Positions 291 through 7,702 of a stretch of 7,814 nt of DNA are shown piece by piece. A program made the position numbers and the translations under genes. Source of the DNA: Candidatus Firestoneibacteriota bacterium (GTDB lineage: Bacteria > JACRDZ01); contig JACRDZ010000262.1 of NCBI GenBank assembly GCA_016212735.1, positions 1-7,814 on the forward strand. The letters are read 5' to 3'. Under the pieces are notes generated by a model. It had not been told where the DNA came from. It saw only the letters and a list, made by a program, of their open reading frames with translations, and did no database searches. Positions within the stretch are counted from its first letter, which is position 1. Each line of letters begins with the position of its first letter.

Positions 291-1970
291 ATGAATTCAG
301 TAATTATACTTATTCTTGGAATAATTGTTTATTATCTGGGCATAAAAGTATATGCTCAATACATTGATGAAAAAATAATCAAATCTGATCCAAAACGTGC
401 TACTCCGGCTCGAATGTATGCAGATGGAGTAGACTTTATGCCGACTCCAAAAAATATTCTTTTCGGGTATCAGTTTAAATCGATTGCAGGTGCAGCTCCA
501 ATATTAGGGCCGATTATTGCAATAAAATGGGGTTGGTTGCCCGGACTCGTCTGGATTCTTCTGGGTACCTTATTTATTGGATGGGTACAGGATTATACAA
601 GTGCTGTAGTATCAATACGCAATGACGGCAAAACATTTGGAAGTATCAGTTACTCTCTTATTTCTCCAAGAGCGAGAACAATTCTTCTGTTTTTTATATA
701 TCTTTATTTATTATTGATTGCTGCAGCATTTACTGATATTGTTGCAAAATTCATGTCAAATAATCCATCACTGCCATTATCTATTATTGTATTAGCATTA
801 GACGGAATGCTTGTTGGTTTTATGATTTATCGCAGTCAGTTCAATTTAGTAGTTGTTACTATAATTGGACTCGGTCTGTTTTATGGCGCAATGATTCTTG
901 GCAATTTTATTCCTATAAATTTTTCTGATCCATCTTTCAATCTGATTTTTTGGGCAATTTTTGCTCTGGCATTTTCTTTCCTTGGTTCAATTCTGCCAAT
1001 ATGGAGTTTTGTTCAACCAATAAATTATCTCGGATTTTTTATAATTTTTATAGGAATGATTGGTATAATTTTTGGTATAGTAGTTGGACATCCAAATTTA
1101 TCTGCTCCAGCTATAACTGGCTTTACTGTTGATAATCTGCCTCTGTGGCCAATGTTATTTGTTACTATCGCATGCGGCGCAACATCCGGCTGGCATAGTA
1201 TAGTGTCTTCAACAGGTACTTCACGGCAATTAGAAAAAGAAACTGATACAAGACCTGTGGCAGGAGGAGCAATGTTTTTAGAAATGATTCTTGCGCTTCT
1301 TGCACTTATAATTGTCAGTATTAATACAACTAAAGTTCCGCCGCCTGTTTTGTTTGGTAATGGTATGGGTGATATTTTGCATTATCTGGGTTTACCTGTT
1401 GAATGGGGAAAAGCATATGGTCCTGTCATGATTGTTATTCTTGCTATTACAATATTACATCTTGTTATAAGATTTATGCGCATAGCAACCAATGAATTGG
1501 CAGGTAAAGCTTTTCCTCTGCTAAAAAATCAAATAGCAGGAACAATGTTTGCTCTTATTTTAACATTTATTTTAGTTTATACTGGTACTTTCAACTATAT
1601 CTGGGTATTGTTTGGTTCAGCAAATCAGTTAATGGCAAGTCTCGCACTTCTTATATGCAGTATCTGGCTTGTGTCTCAGAAAAAACCGTCTTATTTTACT
1701 TTTTATCCAATGATTTTCATGTATGTTACCACTATGGTTGCTCTTATTATTACAGATTATCAGCTTCTAAAGCAAGCTATAAATAGAATCGATCTGGCAG
1801 GTAAACCTTTAGCTCTAAATTCAATTTTAGGAAATTGGTTCGCAGGTATAATAGGTATTACACTTTTTATTTCAGCAGTTATCCTGGCATATGATGGAAT
1901 AAAGGCATTTATAAGGTATAGAAAAGAATTATTTATTAAAATAGAGGAGAAACCAAATGTGTCTCTATAG
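291..1970 (+). CDS. cstA: CstA-family carbon starvation protein (peptide/pyruvate transporter)
   Basis: This is an integral inner-membrane permease of 559 residues with about 13-14 hydrophobic segments spread over its whole length. Family hallmarks are visible: [18 protein letters not shown] (about residues 46-63) followed by the [14 protein letters not shown] segment and WVQDY near 97; [11 protein letters not shown] near 300 followed by [17 protein letters not shown]; and [16 protein letters not shown] near 440. E. coli CstA and BtsT are about 700 residues and import peptides or pyruvate by proton symport. This protein belongs to the shorter form common in anaerobes and archaea, so the substrate class is inferred and not proven. 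The ATG is preceded by AGGAGA at 280-285, five bases away. I see no convincing promoter in the upstream 150 bases. The 3' end overlaps the truncated dgt gene by 14 bases. Confidence 0.93.
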
Positions 1971-2376
1971 AACGAGTCGTGAGGCTTGGGAATGGGCTAC
2001 TCTTGCACCTTATGCAACAAAATCAGATGACAGAAGGTTTTCCTGGAGGTATACAGATAATATAAAACTAAAAGATATTTATACAAGGTTTCCCTCAGAA
2101 AAAACTAATGATCCTATTGACCAAAGTGGCTCAAAAAGCAGGTATAAAACTGCTTTTCAAATTGACAAAGAAAGAATTATAGAGTCTCAAGCTTTTAGAC
2201 GGCTTGAGTATAAAACGCAGATTTTTGTTTCGCATGAAGGAGACCATTTTAGAACTAGATTGACTCATACACTAGAAGTAGCTGCAATATCTCGGGCTGT
2301 TGCAAATGCATTAAGGCTTAATGAAGATTTATGTGAAGCTATTTCCCTGGCTCATGATTTAGGACATACACTCTAA
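1957..2376 (+). pseudogene. dgt: dGTPase (HD-domain dNTP triphosphohydrolase), truncated after the HD motif
   Basis: The 139 residues match the N-terminal part of the Dgt-like family, which cleaves dGTP to deoxyguanosine and triphosphate. Recognisable parts are TLAPYATKS near the start, [31 protein letters not shown] with the first metal-ligand His (H104), [18 protein letters not shown] with the HD pair H133/D134. Family members normally continue as GHTPFGHAGE and total roughly 330-400 residues. Here the frame reads GHTL and stops, so the last metal-ligand Asp and the whole C-terminal half are missing. The following DNA does not resume the family in another frame, which points to deletion or insertion and not a point frameshift. 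GAGGAG at 1944-1949 precedes the ATG by 7 bases, and the 14-base overlap with cstA implies that the intact ancestor was translationally coupled to the transporter. The product is probably inactive. Confidence 0.85.
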
Positions 2377-3491: not shown

Positions 3492-4598
3492 TTATTGAAA
3501 TTCTTCAATAACAATATTTATATTTTCAAGTGTTTCTCCATTTTTCAGCTTAACAAGATGATCCTGTGTCCCATTATAACTGCCAACCAGGTCGCCTGGT
3601 TCAAGAGGGCCGCCAAAAGTATTTCTTGCACCTATATAATAAATTCCGCCTTCTTTTAAAAATATTTCATATTTCCCATCTTTTTGTGTAGCCAGTGAGC
3701 GTGATAGCGGTTTCCCGACCATCTGATAATCTTTATACACAAAAGCATAAATATTTTTTATTTTTTCACCTTTTTTATTTGTAATAAAACCTTTTATAAC
3801 TGTTGTTAAATTTTTATTAGATGCAATATCCCCTTTTTTAATATCATTAAGTTTTTGTGAATCAATTTTTTTAAGATACAGTTCCCCTGCATCAAAATAT
3901 TCATTTTTAATCACATTAATAGGATTCTTTTCGTAAATAGAGTTAAAATCTCCTTCATCAAGCGGTCCCAGTTTGGAGCCTGATTTTCTTTTTCTTGCAA
4001 CAAGGAAATATGTCCCTGGTAAAAGATTTATTTTAAAGCTGCCATCATCTTTTACAGGTTTTGTAAGATAATATGATGGGCCGCGTAGCTGTGAATCGTC
4101 ATTATTATATATGTAAACAAAAACGTCATCAATTTTTTTATCATCAATAATAACTTTGCCTTTTATTCCGCTTCCTTCAGGAATTTTATCTCTCTCTTCT
4201 CTTATTTCATTAAGTTCTATTTGTCCAATTTCGGTAAATTGGTTTTCTTTTACTATAATCGGATTATTAAAATAGGATGCATCAAAATCCCCTGTGCGCA
4301 AAGGCCCTACTTTAGCATAATTCCATCGTTTGCGGGCAACAAGATAATATTTGCCGGGTTTTACATAAATAGTAAATGTCCCGGGAGTTCCTGTAGCTTC
4401 AGAAACCTGGGTAAATTCCTGGCGGAAATTAGTATTTTCTGTGGGATATACATAAGCATAAGCCCAATTAACACCTATTCCCTGATAAACAACAGTCCCT
4501 ATAATTCCAGATTTTCCTTTTTCTTGTGTCTTTTTTCCCTGTTTTGAGCAGGAAAATAATATTAAACTTAAAACAAATAACAAAAAAGTTTTTTTCAT
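3492..4598 (-). CDS. Lipoprotein with three carboxypeptidase-regulatory-like repeat domains
   Basis: The 368-residue product starts with a lipoprotein signal peptide (MKKTFLLFVLSLILFSC): two lysines, a hydrophobic core and an LFSC lipobox, so Cys17 is the predicted lipidated residue. After a short Lys-rich linker it has three homologous domains, roughly 30-130, 143-243 and 264-366. Each opens with a G-x-V/I strand, continues with Y-Y/F-V-Y, has a G-x-F/Y-x-I turn and then P/E-G-x-Y-Y/F, and closes with GPL-x-x-GD-F/L (GPLRTGDF at 98, GPLDEGDF at 211, GPLEPGDL at 330). Domains 1 and 2 also share LVARKR (86-91 and 199-204). Such transthyretin-like or CarboxypepD_reg-like beta sandwiches act in binding or adhesion outside the cytoplasm; the ligand here is unknown. 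TCCTTT at 4605-4610 (AAAGGA on the coding strand) is the ribosome binding site. The gene is divergent from the propeller lipoprotein gene. Confidence 0.85.
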   Translation of the reverse strand: MKKTFLLFVLSLILFSCSKQGKKTQEKGKSGIIGTVVYQGIGVNWAYAYVYPTENTNFRQEFTQVSEATGTPGTFTIYVKPGKYYLVARKRWNYAKVGPLRTGDFDASYFNNPIIVKENQFTEIGQIELNEIREERDKIPEGSGIKGKVIIDDKKIDDVFVYIYNNDDSQLRGPSYYLTKPVKDDGSFKINLLPGTYFLVARKRKSGSKLGPLDEGDFNSIYEKNPINVIKNEYFDAGELYLKKIDSQKLNDIKKGDIASNKNLTTVIKGFITNKKGEKIKNIYAFVYKDYQMVGKPLSRSLATQKDGKYEIFLKEGGIYYIGARNTFGGPLEPGDLVGSYNGTQDHLVKLKNGETLENINIVIEEFQ

Positions 4599-4656: not shown

Positions 4657-4721
4657 TATTTAATTATTGCAATTAAAGTTTCGATTTGAATAATTATATA
4701 TTATACTACAGAGGAATAATA

Positions 4722-6011
4722 ATGAAAAAACTTTTTAGGGCTTGCGAAAAAATAAATTGGGCAAATTATCGCGCAGGATTTTTGTCGGAGTTCAAGGCGC
4801 ATCCGCAGGTGCATAGCAGAATTGAGCTATGCAGCAAGGATGCAACTCAGAAATCCGGCAAAAAGACAAGTGAGAATGTCCAAGTTATTTTTTCGCAAGC
4901 CCTAAATATATTTATTATTTTTGTGTTTTATTCTTGCATCTTTAGCTGTACAACTAAAGTACAAGTGCGTTCAAAAGATGTTTCTCCTAAAGACTGGCCA
5001 AATTTTCATTATGATATTTATCGTTCAGGATTCTATGGTGAAGCTCCGAAAAATTCCTTAAAAGTATTATGGAAGATAGAATTAGGCGGTCCAATAGAAT
5101 CAACCCCTGCTTATGCAAAAGATGTTTTATATGTTGGATGCAGGGATAATTATTTTTATGCAATTAATGCATCAAACGGTAATATTATATGGAAGTTTAA
5201 AACAGATTCATGGATAGATTCTTCTCCATGTGTTTTTAATGATATTGTTTATTTTGGCTCCTTAGATAAAACTTTTTATGCAGTAGATGCTGTAGAAGGG
5301 AATCAAATATGGAAATTTTCAACATGGCAGCCCATTCGCTCGTCACCTGTTATTAATGGAGATTTTATTTATTTTGGAGGATTTGATAATTATATCTATG
5401 CATTAAATGCACAAAAGGGCGATGTTATTTGGAAATACAGAACCAATGCAAGTATATTTTATGCTTCTCCTATAACTGATGAAAATAATGTATATTTTGG
5501 CGGATGGGATTCTAATTTTTATGCATTTGACAAAAAAAACGGTCAAATGAAATGGAAATTCAGAACAGAAGGAAATATTGAATCATATCCTGCAGTTCTA
5601 AATGGTAAAGTTTATATAGGTTCATGGGATAAATATTTTTATGCTTTAGATACGAACACAGGGAAATTGATCTGGAAATTTAAAACTTATGGAAATATAT
5701 GTGGAGCAGGAGCTATTTATAAAGATAAATTATATTTTGGTTCATGGGATAATTTTATATATTCTTTAAATACAGAGACAGGTGAGTTAATCTGGAGGTA
5801 TCGTACAGGTGGACGTATTCTTTCTTCTCCTTCTGTTGGTAAAGATAAAGTATATGTTACTTCCCTTGACCAGAATTTATATGTTTTCCATTCTGATTCA
5901 GGAGAATTAATTTCAAAATTTCCAACTGAAGGAGCTCCTGGAAGTCCAATAGTAGTTAATGGGAAAATATATTTTGGATCGAATCATGGTGTGTTATATG
6001 CACTGGAGTAG
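4722..6011 (+). CDS. PQQ/BamB-like beta-propeller lipoprotein with a palindromic element in its signal peptide
   Basis: The ATG at 4722 is chosen because AGAGGA (4710-4715) precedes it by six bases; a TTG at 4686 is in frame but has no such site. The product has 429 residues. Residues 1-5 (MKKLF) and 62-76 (NIFIIFVFYSCIFSC, predicted lipid Cys76) are the two halves of a lipoprotein signal peptide, separated by 56 residues encoded by a palindromic repeat. DWPNFHYDIYRSGF (91-104) is the usual entry motif of PQQ-type propellers. Eight repeats of about 40 residues follow from 115 to the end, each of the form WKF-x-T, S-x-P, VYFGS-x-D, YALN-x-x-x-G-x-x-I-W. The fold resembles BamB and the quinoprotein propellers; no PQQ ligand or enzyme domain is evident, so a scaffold or binding role is inferred. 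If the 56-residue extension blocks export, the gene is functionally broken despite being open. Confidence 0.85.
   Translation: MKKLFRACEKINWANYRAGFLSEFKAHPQVHSRIELCSKDATQKSGKKTSENVQVIFSQALNIFIIFVFYSCIFSCTTKVQVRSKDVSPKDWPNFHYDIYRSGFYGEAPKNSLKVLWKIELGGPIESTPAYAKDVLYVGCRDNYFYAINASNGNIIWKFKTDSWIDSSPCVFNDIVYFGSLDKTFYAVDAVEGNQIWKFSTWQPIRSSPVINGDFIYFGGFDNYIYALNAQKGDVIWKYRTNASIFYASPITDENNVYFGGWDSNFYAFDKKNGQMKWKFRTEGNIESYPAVLNGKVYIGSWDKYFYALDTNTGKLIWKFKTYGNICGAGAIYKDKLYFGSWDNFIYSLNTETGELIWRYRTGGRILSSPSVGKDKVYVTSLDQNLYVFHSDSGELISKFPTEGAPGSPIVVNGKIYFGSNHGVLYALE
4734..4906. mobile_element. Palindromic repeat element inserted in frame in a coding sequence
   Basis: The left end at 4734-4755 begins TTTAGGGCTTGCG and the right end at 4885-4906 is its perfect 22-bp reverse complement. 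Inside, further complementary pairs are nested: TTGG/CCAA (4757-4760 with 4880-4883), TTTTTGTCGG with CCGGCAAAAA (4779-4788 and 4855-4864, one G-T pair), GAGTT with AACTC (4788-4792 and 4844-4848), GCATCC with GGATGC (4799-4804 and 4838-4843). The tip is GCATAGC, 8-base loop, GCTATGC (4811-4832). The whole forms one long hairpin centred near 4821. It carries no transposase, so it would be non-autonomous (MITE-like or RPE-like). TA flanks both GGG/CCC ends, but those bases are part of the palindrome, so a target duplication cannot be distinguished. The interior is richer in G and C than its flanks. Confidence 0.85.
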
Positions 6012-7622: not shown

Positions 7623-7702
7623 TACTACAGTGCTACAGTATGACAGAGCGGCAGTACAACAGTTTTTATTCTATCGCATTATCGCACTGTAGCGCTGTAG
7701 TA
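7623..7702. repeat. Long hairpin with 8-base internal periodicity after the operon
   Basis: TACTACAGTGCTACAGT at 7623-7639 pairs with 7686-7702 over 17 positions with one G-T pair, around a 46-base loop. The left half is also five imperfect tandem 8-mers (7624-7663): ACTACAGT, GCTACAGT, ATGACAGA, GCGGCAGT, ACAACAGT. The minus-strand reading of the right half shows similar units (ACTACAGC, GCTACAGT, GCGATAAT). It sits between convergent genes, immediately after the TAA at 7620-7622 and 4 bases before the opposing stop at 7707-7709. It could stop transcription from both sides, but no T-run follows either arm, so it is better described as a repeat than as a standard intrinsic terminator. Confidence 0.75.

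Follow-up and report, generated by a model that had tools for sequence, protein, structure and literature searches.

We found a lipoprotein gene whose signal peptide region has most probably been entered, in frame, by a MITE of the ISAzo13 type. The gene lies in a 7,814-nt stretch of DNA from a Candidatus Firestoneibacteriota bacterium (contig JACRDZ010000262.1; in the following called the window). For this explanation as a whole, we estimate a probability of roughly 0.86. At the level of sequence, the insertion, its reading in frame and the recurrence of the encoded peptide in other predicted proteins are demonstrated. An earlier note on this DNA had arrived at the right reading; it lacked the true boundaries of the mobile unit, the 3-bp target duplication and the link to ISAzo13.

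The host gene (4722..6011, plus strand; 429 codons plus stop) encodes a lipoprotein with a PQQ-like beta-propeller of the BamB/ACSF4 type, matched by Pfam PF13570 and PF13360 (PQQ-type beta-propeller) from residue 114 on. Its reading frame runs uninterrupted from the ATG at 4722 to the stop codon at 6009-6011 and stays open through the element, just as the earlier note had it. Because a Shine-Dalgarno-like AGAGGA, read from the sequence, precedes this ATG at 4710..4715 (plus strand), it is likely the original start. The insert comprises 56 codons (residues 6-61, RACEKINWANYRAGFLSEFKAHPQVHSRIELCSKDATQKSGKKTSENVQVIFSQAL; 4737..4904, plus strand), as delimited by translation and protein search, and encodes a hydrophilic peptide; a KKT cluster lies close to the end of the insert, and none of its stretches is strongly hydrophobic. 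Directly 3′ of it follows the displaced hydrophobic stretch with its lipobox, NIFIIFVFYSCIFSC (residues 62-76, ending in Cys 76; 4905..4949, plus strand, read from the sequence), with a Kyte-Doolittle maximum of 2.8 in IFIIFVFYSCIF. The hydrophobic region and Cys 76 are intact, yet 61 residues precede this region. Removing 168 bases restores a lipoprotein signal, as had been proposed, and yields MKKLFNIFIIFVFYSCIFSC.

Elsewhere in the window, an ORF at 1957-2376 (plus strand) has a partial HD domain (PF01966), looks dGTPase-like by eye and ends just past the HD motif (AHDLGHTL), so that this gene appears truncated. A second, unrelated palindrome lies at 7625-7692, 3′ of the last ORF (CTACAGTGCTACAG / CACTGTAG); a 16-base piece of its arm matched none of the four genomes of the phylum of G003, a genome introduced below (≤2 mismatches). 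In no part of the window did an Rfam family score up to its gathering threshold.

The two 22-bp ends of the element (4734-4755 and 4885-4906) form an inverted repeat without a single mismatch. Folded as RNA, the element strand forms one near-full-length hairpin of -90.3 kcal/mol, a value matched by none of 200 shuffles (mean -40.6, z -14). Both the perfect ends and a nested central hairpin had been noted before, and the latter appears in the fold at 4810..4833 (plus strand; TGCATAGC ... GCTATGCA). The 18-bp core of the ends occurs at just two sites in the window (≤3 mismatches), namely the two element ends, against a chance expectation of 0.04; two sites were reached in 0 of 200 shuffles.

The palindrome of 173 bp at 4734-4906, previously taken as the element, is real, but the mobile unit itself is shorter. 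Copies elsewhere bound the unit at GGGC...GCCC, and the outer TTTA and TAAA are therefore target DNA. The unit thus measures 165 bp (4738..4902, plus strand), as judged from the fold, the paired ends and their likeness to those of an insertion sequence at locus L087 (see below). Its left terminal inverted repeat, with the core GGGCTTGCGAAAAAATAA, spans 4738..4763 (plus strand, by inverted-end match), and the right one 4877..4902 (minus strand, reading GGGCTTGCGAAAAAATAACTTGGACA, by end comparison). Being short and transposase-free and having perfect terminal inverted repeats, the unit has the structure of a MITE.

On either side of the unit lie TTA (4735..4737, plus strand) and TAA (4903..4905, plus strand), which, by comparison of flanks, we take as the two copies of a target duplication; they are one base off a perfect one. 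A 165-bp unit plus a 3-bp duplication adds 168 bp, so that 56 codons are gained and the frame is kept. We rejected a 2-bp TA duplication: with it the insertion would come to 167 bases, out of frame, and the duplications of elements elsewhere measure 3 bp. One of the unit's six frames is open, and among 5000 dinucleotide shuffles of the unit core at least one frame was open in 58% and the window's frame in 22%. That a frame should be open across an element of this kind is for this reason unremarkable on its own.

The insertion and the ancestral signal had originally been deduced from one copy. They are now backed by an orthologue in G003, the closest genome compared (CstA 79% over residues 174-549; lipoprotein 52%). 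This syntenic orthologue (locus L040) has an uninterrupted lipoprotein signal, MKTNFLFLPVIFLCLIFLNSC, and the 56 residues are absent. In a global alignment of the two proteins, the gap opens straight after MKKLF/MKTNF, and joining the flanks lifts the alignment score from 149 to 204. Insert-free orthologues, which the earlier note had named as support, are thus found at L040 and in other genomes of the phylum: matches to the window protein in four genomes of G003's phylum (E ≤1e-60) begin at residue 54 or later and touch at most the last 8 insert residues, where the relatives' own hydrophobic starts align. The two closest matches from the other three phylum genomes (38-39% identity) have short hydrophobic N-termini without the insert. 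None of 12 fetched loci of relatives contained an end-like sequence (≤4 mismatches). A protein search with the whole lipoprotein returned thousands of propellers and nothing on the N-terminus; the window protein itself was absent among the 120 matches listed.

The divergent neighbor of the host gene (3492..4598, minus strand) is also a lipoprotein gene, and its match to the carboxypeptidase-regulatory-like family PF13620 is weak (28.4 bits, under the cut-off of 32.3). It shares 65% identity over 358 aligned positions with its counterpart at L040, in the same arrangement. The order of the divergent lipoprotein pair (3492-4598 and 4722-6011) is thus kept in G003. Short repeats are classic misassembly points, and a repeat could have been fused to an unrelated contig at the palindrome. 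We regard such an artefact as very improbable: both sides belong to one gene, as in the syntenic orthologue, with the Shine-Dalgarno start and the divergent neighbor to the left of the element and, to its right, the hydrophobic stretch with the lipobox and then the propeller.

We searched for residues 6-61 in other predicted proteins. Among proteins of about 236-750 amino acids, four candidates yielded three proteins (P0121, P0122 and P0123), each with all 56 residues, at 91, 89 and 77% identity; none was found among proteins of about 70-230 amino acids. The three hosts, known as predicted proteins only, are unrelated to each other, and P0121 and P0122 carry the source name Candidatus Firestonebacteria. 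An occurrence in other genes, which the earlier note had named as support, is seen for the peptide in three predicted proteins, and for the first two there are insert-free relatives.

P0121 is a multihaem cytochrome-c7-like lipoprotein that reads MKIF-[56]-SIILLIFSISAC, that is, with the insert in the signal peptide. Its relative in G003 (58% over residues 146-302) reads ...MLLLIFVLFLGISAC and lacks the insert, and no end-like sequence was present at this locus. A match back to residue 30 across a stop codon, considered as a decayed insert in this relative, was rejected, as its score of 24 was reached by 78 of 1000 shuffles. P0122 is an RsmE protein with the insert at residues 163-218, between a helix and a strand. 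In all five genomes compared, RsmE lacks the insert and the match breaks around it: one piece stops at 154-165 and the next begins at 216-220. Just 9 bases separate the two pieces in G003. An AlphaFold2 model of P0122 (six sequences; mean pLDDT 73.2, with pLDDT ≥70 in 210 of 300 residues) has a sole stretch of at least 3 residues with pLDDT <50, residues 164-218, which is the insert; this is consistent with a disordered loop. In P0123, a methyltransferase, the peptide is located at the N-terminus, followed by MITPKEYD. Database matches identified a generic methyltransferase only, and the true start may be located downstream of the element. In-frame reading is thus seen in the window, P0121 and P0122, and is ambiguous in P0123, the copies outside the window being predicted proteins. 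A protein search sees open in-frame copies only, and hence no bias toward genes or toward this frame can be inferred.

The 56 residues might alternatively represent an ancient functional N-terminal domain that was never inserted, since no stop interrupts the frame and three other proteins carry the peptide at 77-91% identity. These proteins are unrelated and one carries the peptide internally, relatives lack it, and the DNA is a palindrome with transposon ends. We consider this idea, which is refuted by the unrelated hosts and the insert-free relatives, the least credible of those weighed here.

To place the element in a wider context, we scanned GTDB for exact matches to 19 end bases and obtained nine loci, in genomes G001-G009. 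Taken together, their records bear the names Desulfobacteraceae (2), Desulfobacterales, Deltaproteobacteria, Desantisbacteria, Chromatiaceae, Clostridia, Dehalococcoidia and simply "bacterium". The whole genomes of G001 to G009 contained 3, 2, 5, 4, 12, 1, 147, 1 and 17 sites of the 18-base core, respectively (≤2 mismatches), and the backward-sequence control gave 1, 1, 1, 0, 1, 0, 0, 0 and 0 sites. Paired ends were found in six of the nine; the unpaired-only matches in G002, G006 and G008 were taken as chance. From the 188 sites in the six genomes, we hand-picked 40 stretches, some of them without an element. The sample comprised 34 two-ended elements, namely the window's and 33 from the six other genomes.

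Identical 3-bp flanks bordered 23 of the 34 elements, with the window counted as a mismatch. Shuffling the right flanks gave a mean of 12.4 identical pairs and reached 23 in none of 10,000 rounds; identical 4-bp flanks were found in none of the 34. All but one of the 23 pairs were TTA or TAA, the remaining one being TAT, and the TTA/TAA pair of the window occurred in two other sampled elements. At the family level, the elements are therefore dispersed copies with target duplications, as is typical of MITEs (34 elements, 23 with identical flanks). The sub-type of the window is known from four copies including the window's own, three of them at the protein level alone. With respect to length, the 33 elements elsewhere divide into 24 that would put a reading frame out of register and 9 (156, 168 or 180 bp) that are frame-neutral.

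In G007, the Chromatiaceae record with 147 end sites, 12 of 16 sampled units are 179 bp long and frame-shifting. A 38-bp miniature with the ends nearly back to back and TTA/TAA flanks lies at 1274-1311 of locus L086 (G003:C290). Spanning frames also exist in the 156-bp units of G009; four of these were tested and had no Pfam match, and we do not claim in-frame copies there. Searching the genomes of 386 relatives at E 1e-10, without a positive control, we detected no full-length DNA copy, and a DNA search of plasmids and phages gave no match. Three scans of viral contigs for the exact end returned 0, 0 and 1 matches; the single match was unpaired and, taken as chance, was rejected as a related element.

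A candidate source of the transposase was found in G003. There, a 1896-bp insertion sequence of the ISAzo13 family (contig C99; 586-2481 of L087) is flanked by TTA on both sides, and its ends read GGGGCTGCGCAAAAATAACTTGG and GGGCTTGCGCAAAAATAACTTGG. Compared by eye with the right end of this one insertion sequence, the right end of the window element has 3 differences within its first 26 bases. Since ends and flanks match, we read the element as an ISAzo13-type MITE; from these matches, both this assignment and its mobilization by an ISAzo13 transposase are inferred. The element resembles insertion sequences of the family in its ends, which follow the pattern GGGCTTGCG(A/C)AAAAATAACTTGG, and in TTA flanks (G003:C99 being the example, other members agreeing more loosely); unlike them it measures 165 bp, has no transposase gene and is read inside genes. 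The target duplications of the family elements and of the insertion sequence are mostly TTA or TAA, and the window copy has TTA/TAA. An origin from IS5 or IS630, suggested by the TWA/TA targets, was dropped once the ISAzo13 insertion sequence proved to share the ends. The ORFs flanking the L087 insertion sequence enter its ends in the phase of the window insert (RGCAKITW and RACAKITW, then a stop), so that the ends prolong neighboring reading frames.

The insertion sequence on G003:C99 holds the whole ISAzo13 catalytic domain (PF07592, 2e-107; NF033519, 1.2e-109, model residues 96-386). Its transposase is split: one ORF covers residues 96-386 of the model, and a weak match to residues 2-35 lies in another ORF upstream. 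As this is the sole end-matching insertion sequence found near the window, the split weakens the ISAzo13 case. The link is weakened further because three of the six element-bearing genomes (G001, G005 and G009) have no PF07592 match; in G007 and G004 the matches are fragmentary and such ends are absent from the fetched flanks. Across the 386 relatives' genomes, an ISAzo13 transposase (E ≤1e-40) was found in six, at eight loci. Those in G003 and G237 have TTA flanks, one in G160 has very similar ends with CTA, one in G276 is weak with TAA, and four have none. We also examined 7 of the 163 plasmid records with a related transposase, requiring an exact 3-bp duplication and at most 5 of 20 mismatches. 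Four had inverted GG-type ends with TTA flanks, one was a weaker candidate with ATT, and two had none.

To our knowledge, the mover of Rickettsia palindromic elements (RPE) is not established. According to the available parts of the publications, these palindromes of about 105-150 bp are read in frame within many genes (PMC10969869, PMC2229807), and their target duplication is entered as "?" in one tabulation (PMC2229807); a transposase is not named in the accessible texts. The analogy drawn in the earlier note is apt as to the mode of working: as far as these sources describe RPE, both are small palindromic mobile DNA that reads in frame as a peptide inside unrelated genes (PMC2229807, PMC10969869). 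This likeness concerns the mode of working only. Unlike RPE, the window element belongs to another host lineage, and we can propose for it both a transposase family and a duplication of 3 bp. An RPE gained by transfer would fit the similar size (105-146 bp in the accessible text of PMC2229807 and about 150 bp in that of PMC10969869, vs 165 bp) and the long hairpin with in-frame reading that both sources describe. The ends and flanks match ISAzo13 elements, and we judge such a transfer to be even less probable than a misassembly.

Comparable cases are documented in other prokaryotes, again as far as the accessible texts go. Protein-coding palindromes occur as in-frame inserts in Wolbachia and Methanocaldococcus (PMC2996958), and palindromic repeats lie in enzyme genes of Pseudomonas aeruginosa (PMC4496055); like these, the window element resides inside protein genes, a likeness drawn by description only. 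The Yersinia element YPAL/RU-2 is described as a 168-bp MITE encoding 56 residues, which in one fusion supply a portion of a predicted signal peptide (PMC2229807). In that case a hydrophobic MITE peptide helps to build a signal, whereas in the window the peptide is hydrophilic and interrupts a lipoprotein signal already in place. In the literature searched, which covered few subscription papers and some sources in part, we found no description of ISAzo13 MITEs read in frame; within the same coverage, none joined Firestonebacteria with transposable elements, and the one paper mentioning both ISAzo13 and MITEs gives no account of ISAzo13 MITEs in its accessible text. In-frame MITE fusion is an already known kind of event; what is new is the transposase family, the frame arithmetic and two split lipoprotein signals.

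In the mechanism that we propose, a transposase acting in trans would have moved an ISAzo13-type MITE into a TWA site across codons 5-6, in the n-region of the signal peptide. The 165-bp unit with its 3-bp duplication would have added exactly 56 codons, using the element's one open frame, so that the host frame runs on. The predicted product would consist of MKKLF, the 56-residue hydrophilic peptide and the intact hydrophobic stretch with its lipobox. If exported, it would have a long n-region with the KKT cluster ahead of the hydrophobic stretch; this cluster and the lack of a strongly hydrophobic run in the insert would suit such an n-region. We give about even odds that the gene yields this protein and that it continues to be exported as a lipoprotein.

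The same insertion may instead have knocked the gene out or down, the hairpin blocking translation or the long, charged n-region stopping export, with the frame open by luck and the event recent. This scenario shares the insertion with our preferred explanation and differs in the outcome. The hairpin of -90 kcal/mol begins some 13 nt downstream of the A of the start codon and could hamper translation, one of six frames is open and chance open frames are common in shuffles, and MITEs are known to inactivate genes by insertion, as stated in the available part of PMC10969869. Against it, no stop or frameshift disturbs the 368 codons that follow the insert, the second lipoprotein, P0121, is arranged alike with its downstream lipobox intact, and the conserved enzyme P0122 carries an internal copy with both halves preserved. 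We give this scenario a somewhat less than even chance.

Returning to the in-frame insertion, its copies probably persist since a protein is little harmed by an insert at its very N-terminus or within a loop, and not because the peptide is useful. A broader proposal would be that the ISAzo13 MITE of the Firestonebacteria lineage is a translatable insert, always adding 56 codons, with ends stop-free in one phase, repeatedly entering lipoprotein n-regions or loops without gene loss, and that the extended lipoproteins are made and exported. We consider this broader proposal possible but rather unlikely. The element shows RPE-like behavior in a little-known lineage, here with a candidate transposase family. 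It also offers a simple rule for frame survival, that unit length plus duplication be divisible by three, and the idea of mobile elements as suppliers of protein segments becomes testable in one transposon family. For the lipoproteins themselves, the insertion raises the question of how long and how charged an n-region may become before export fails.
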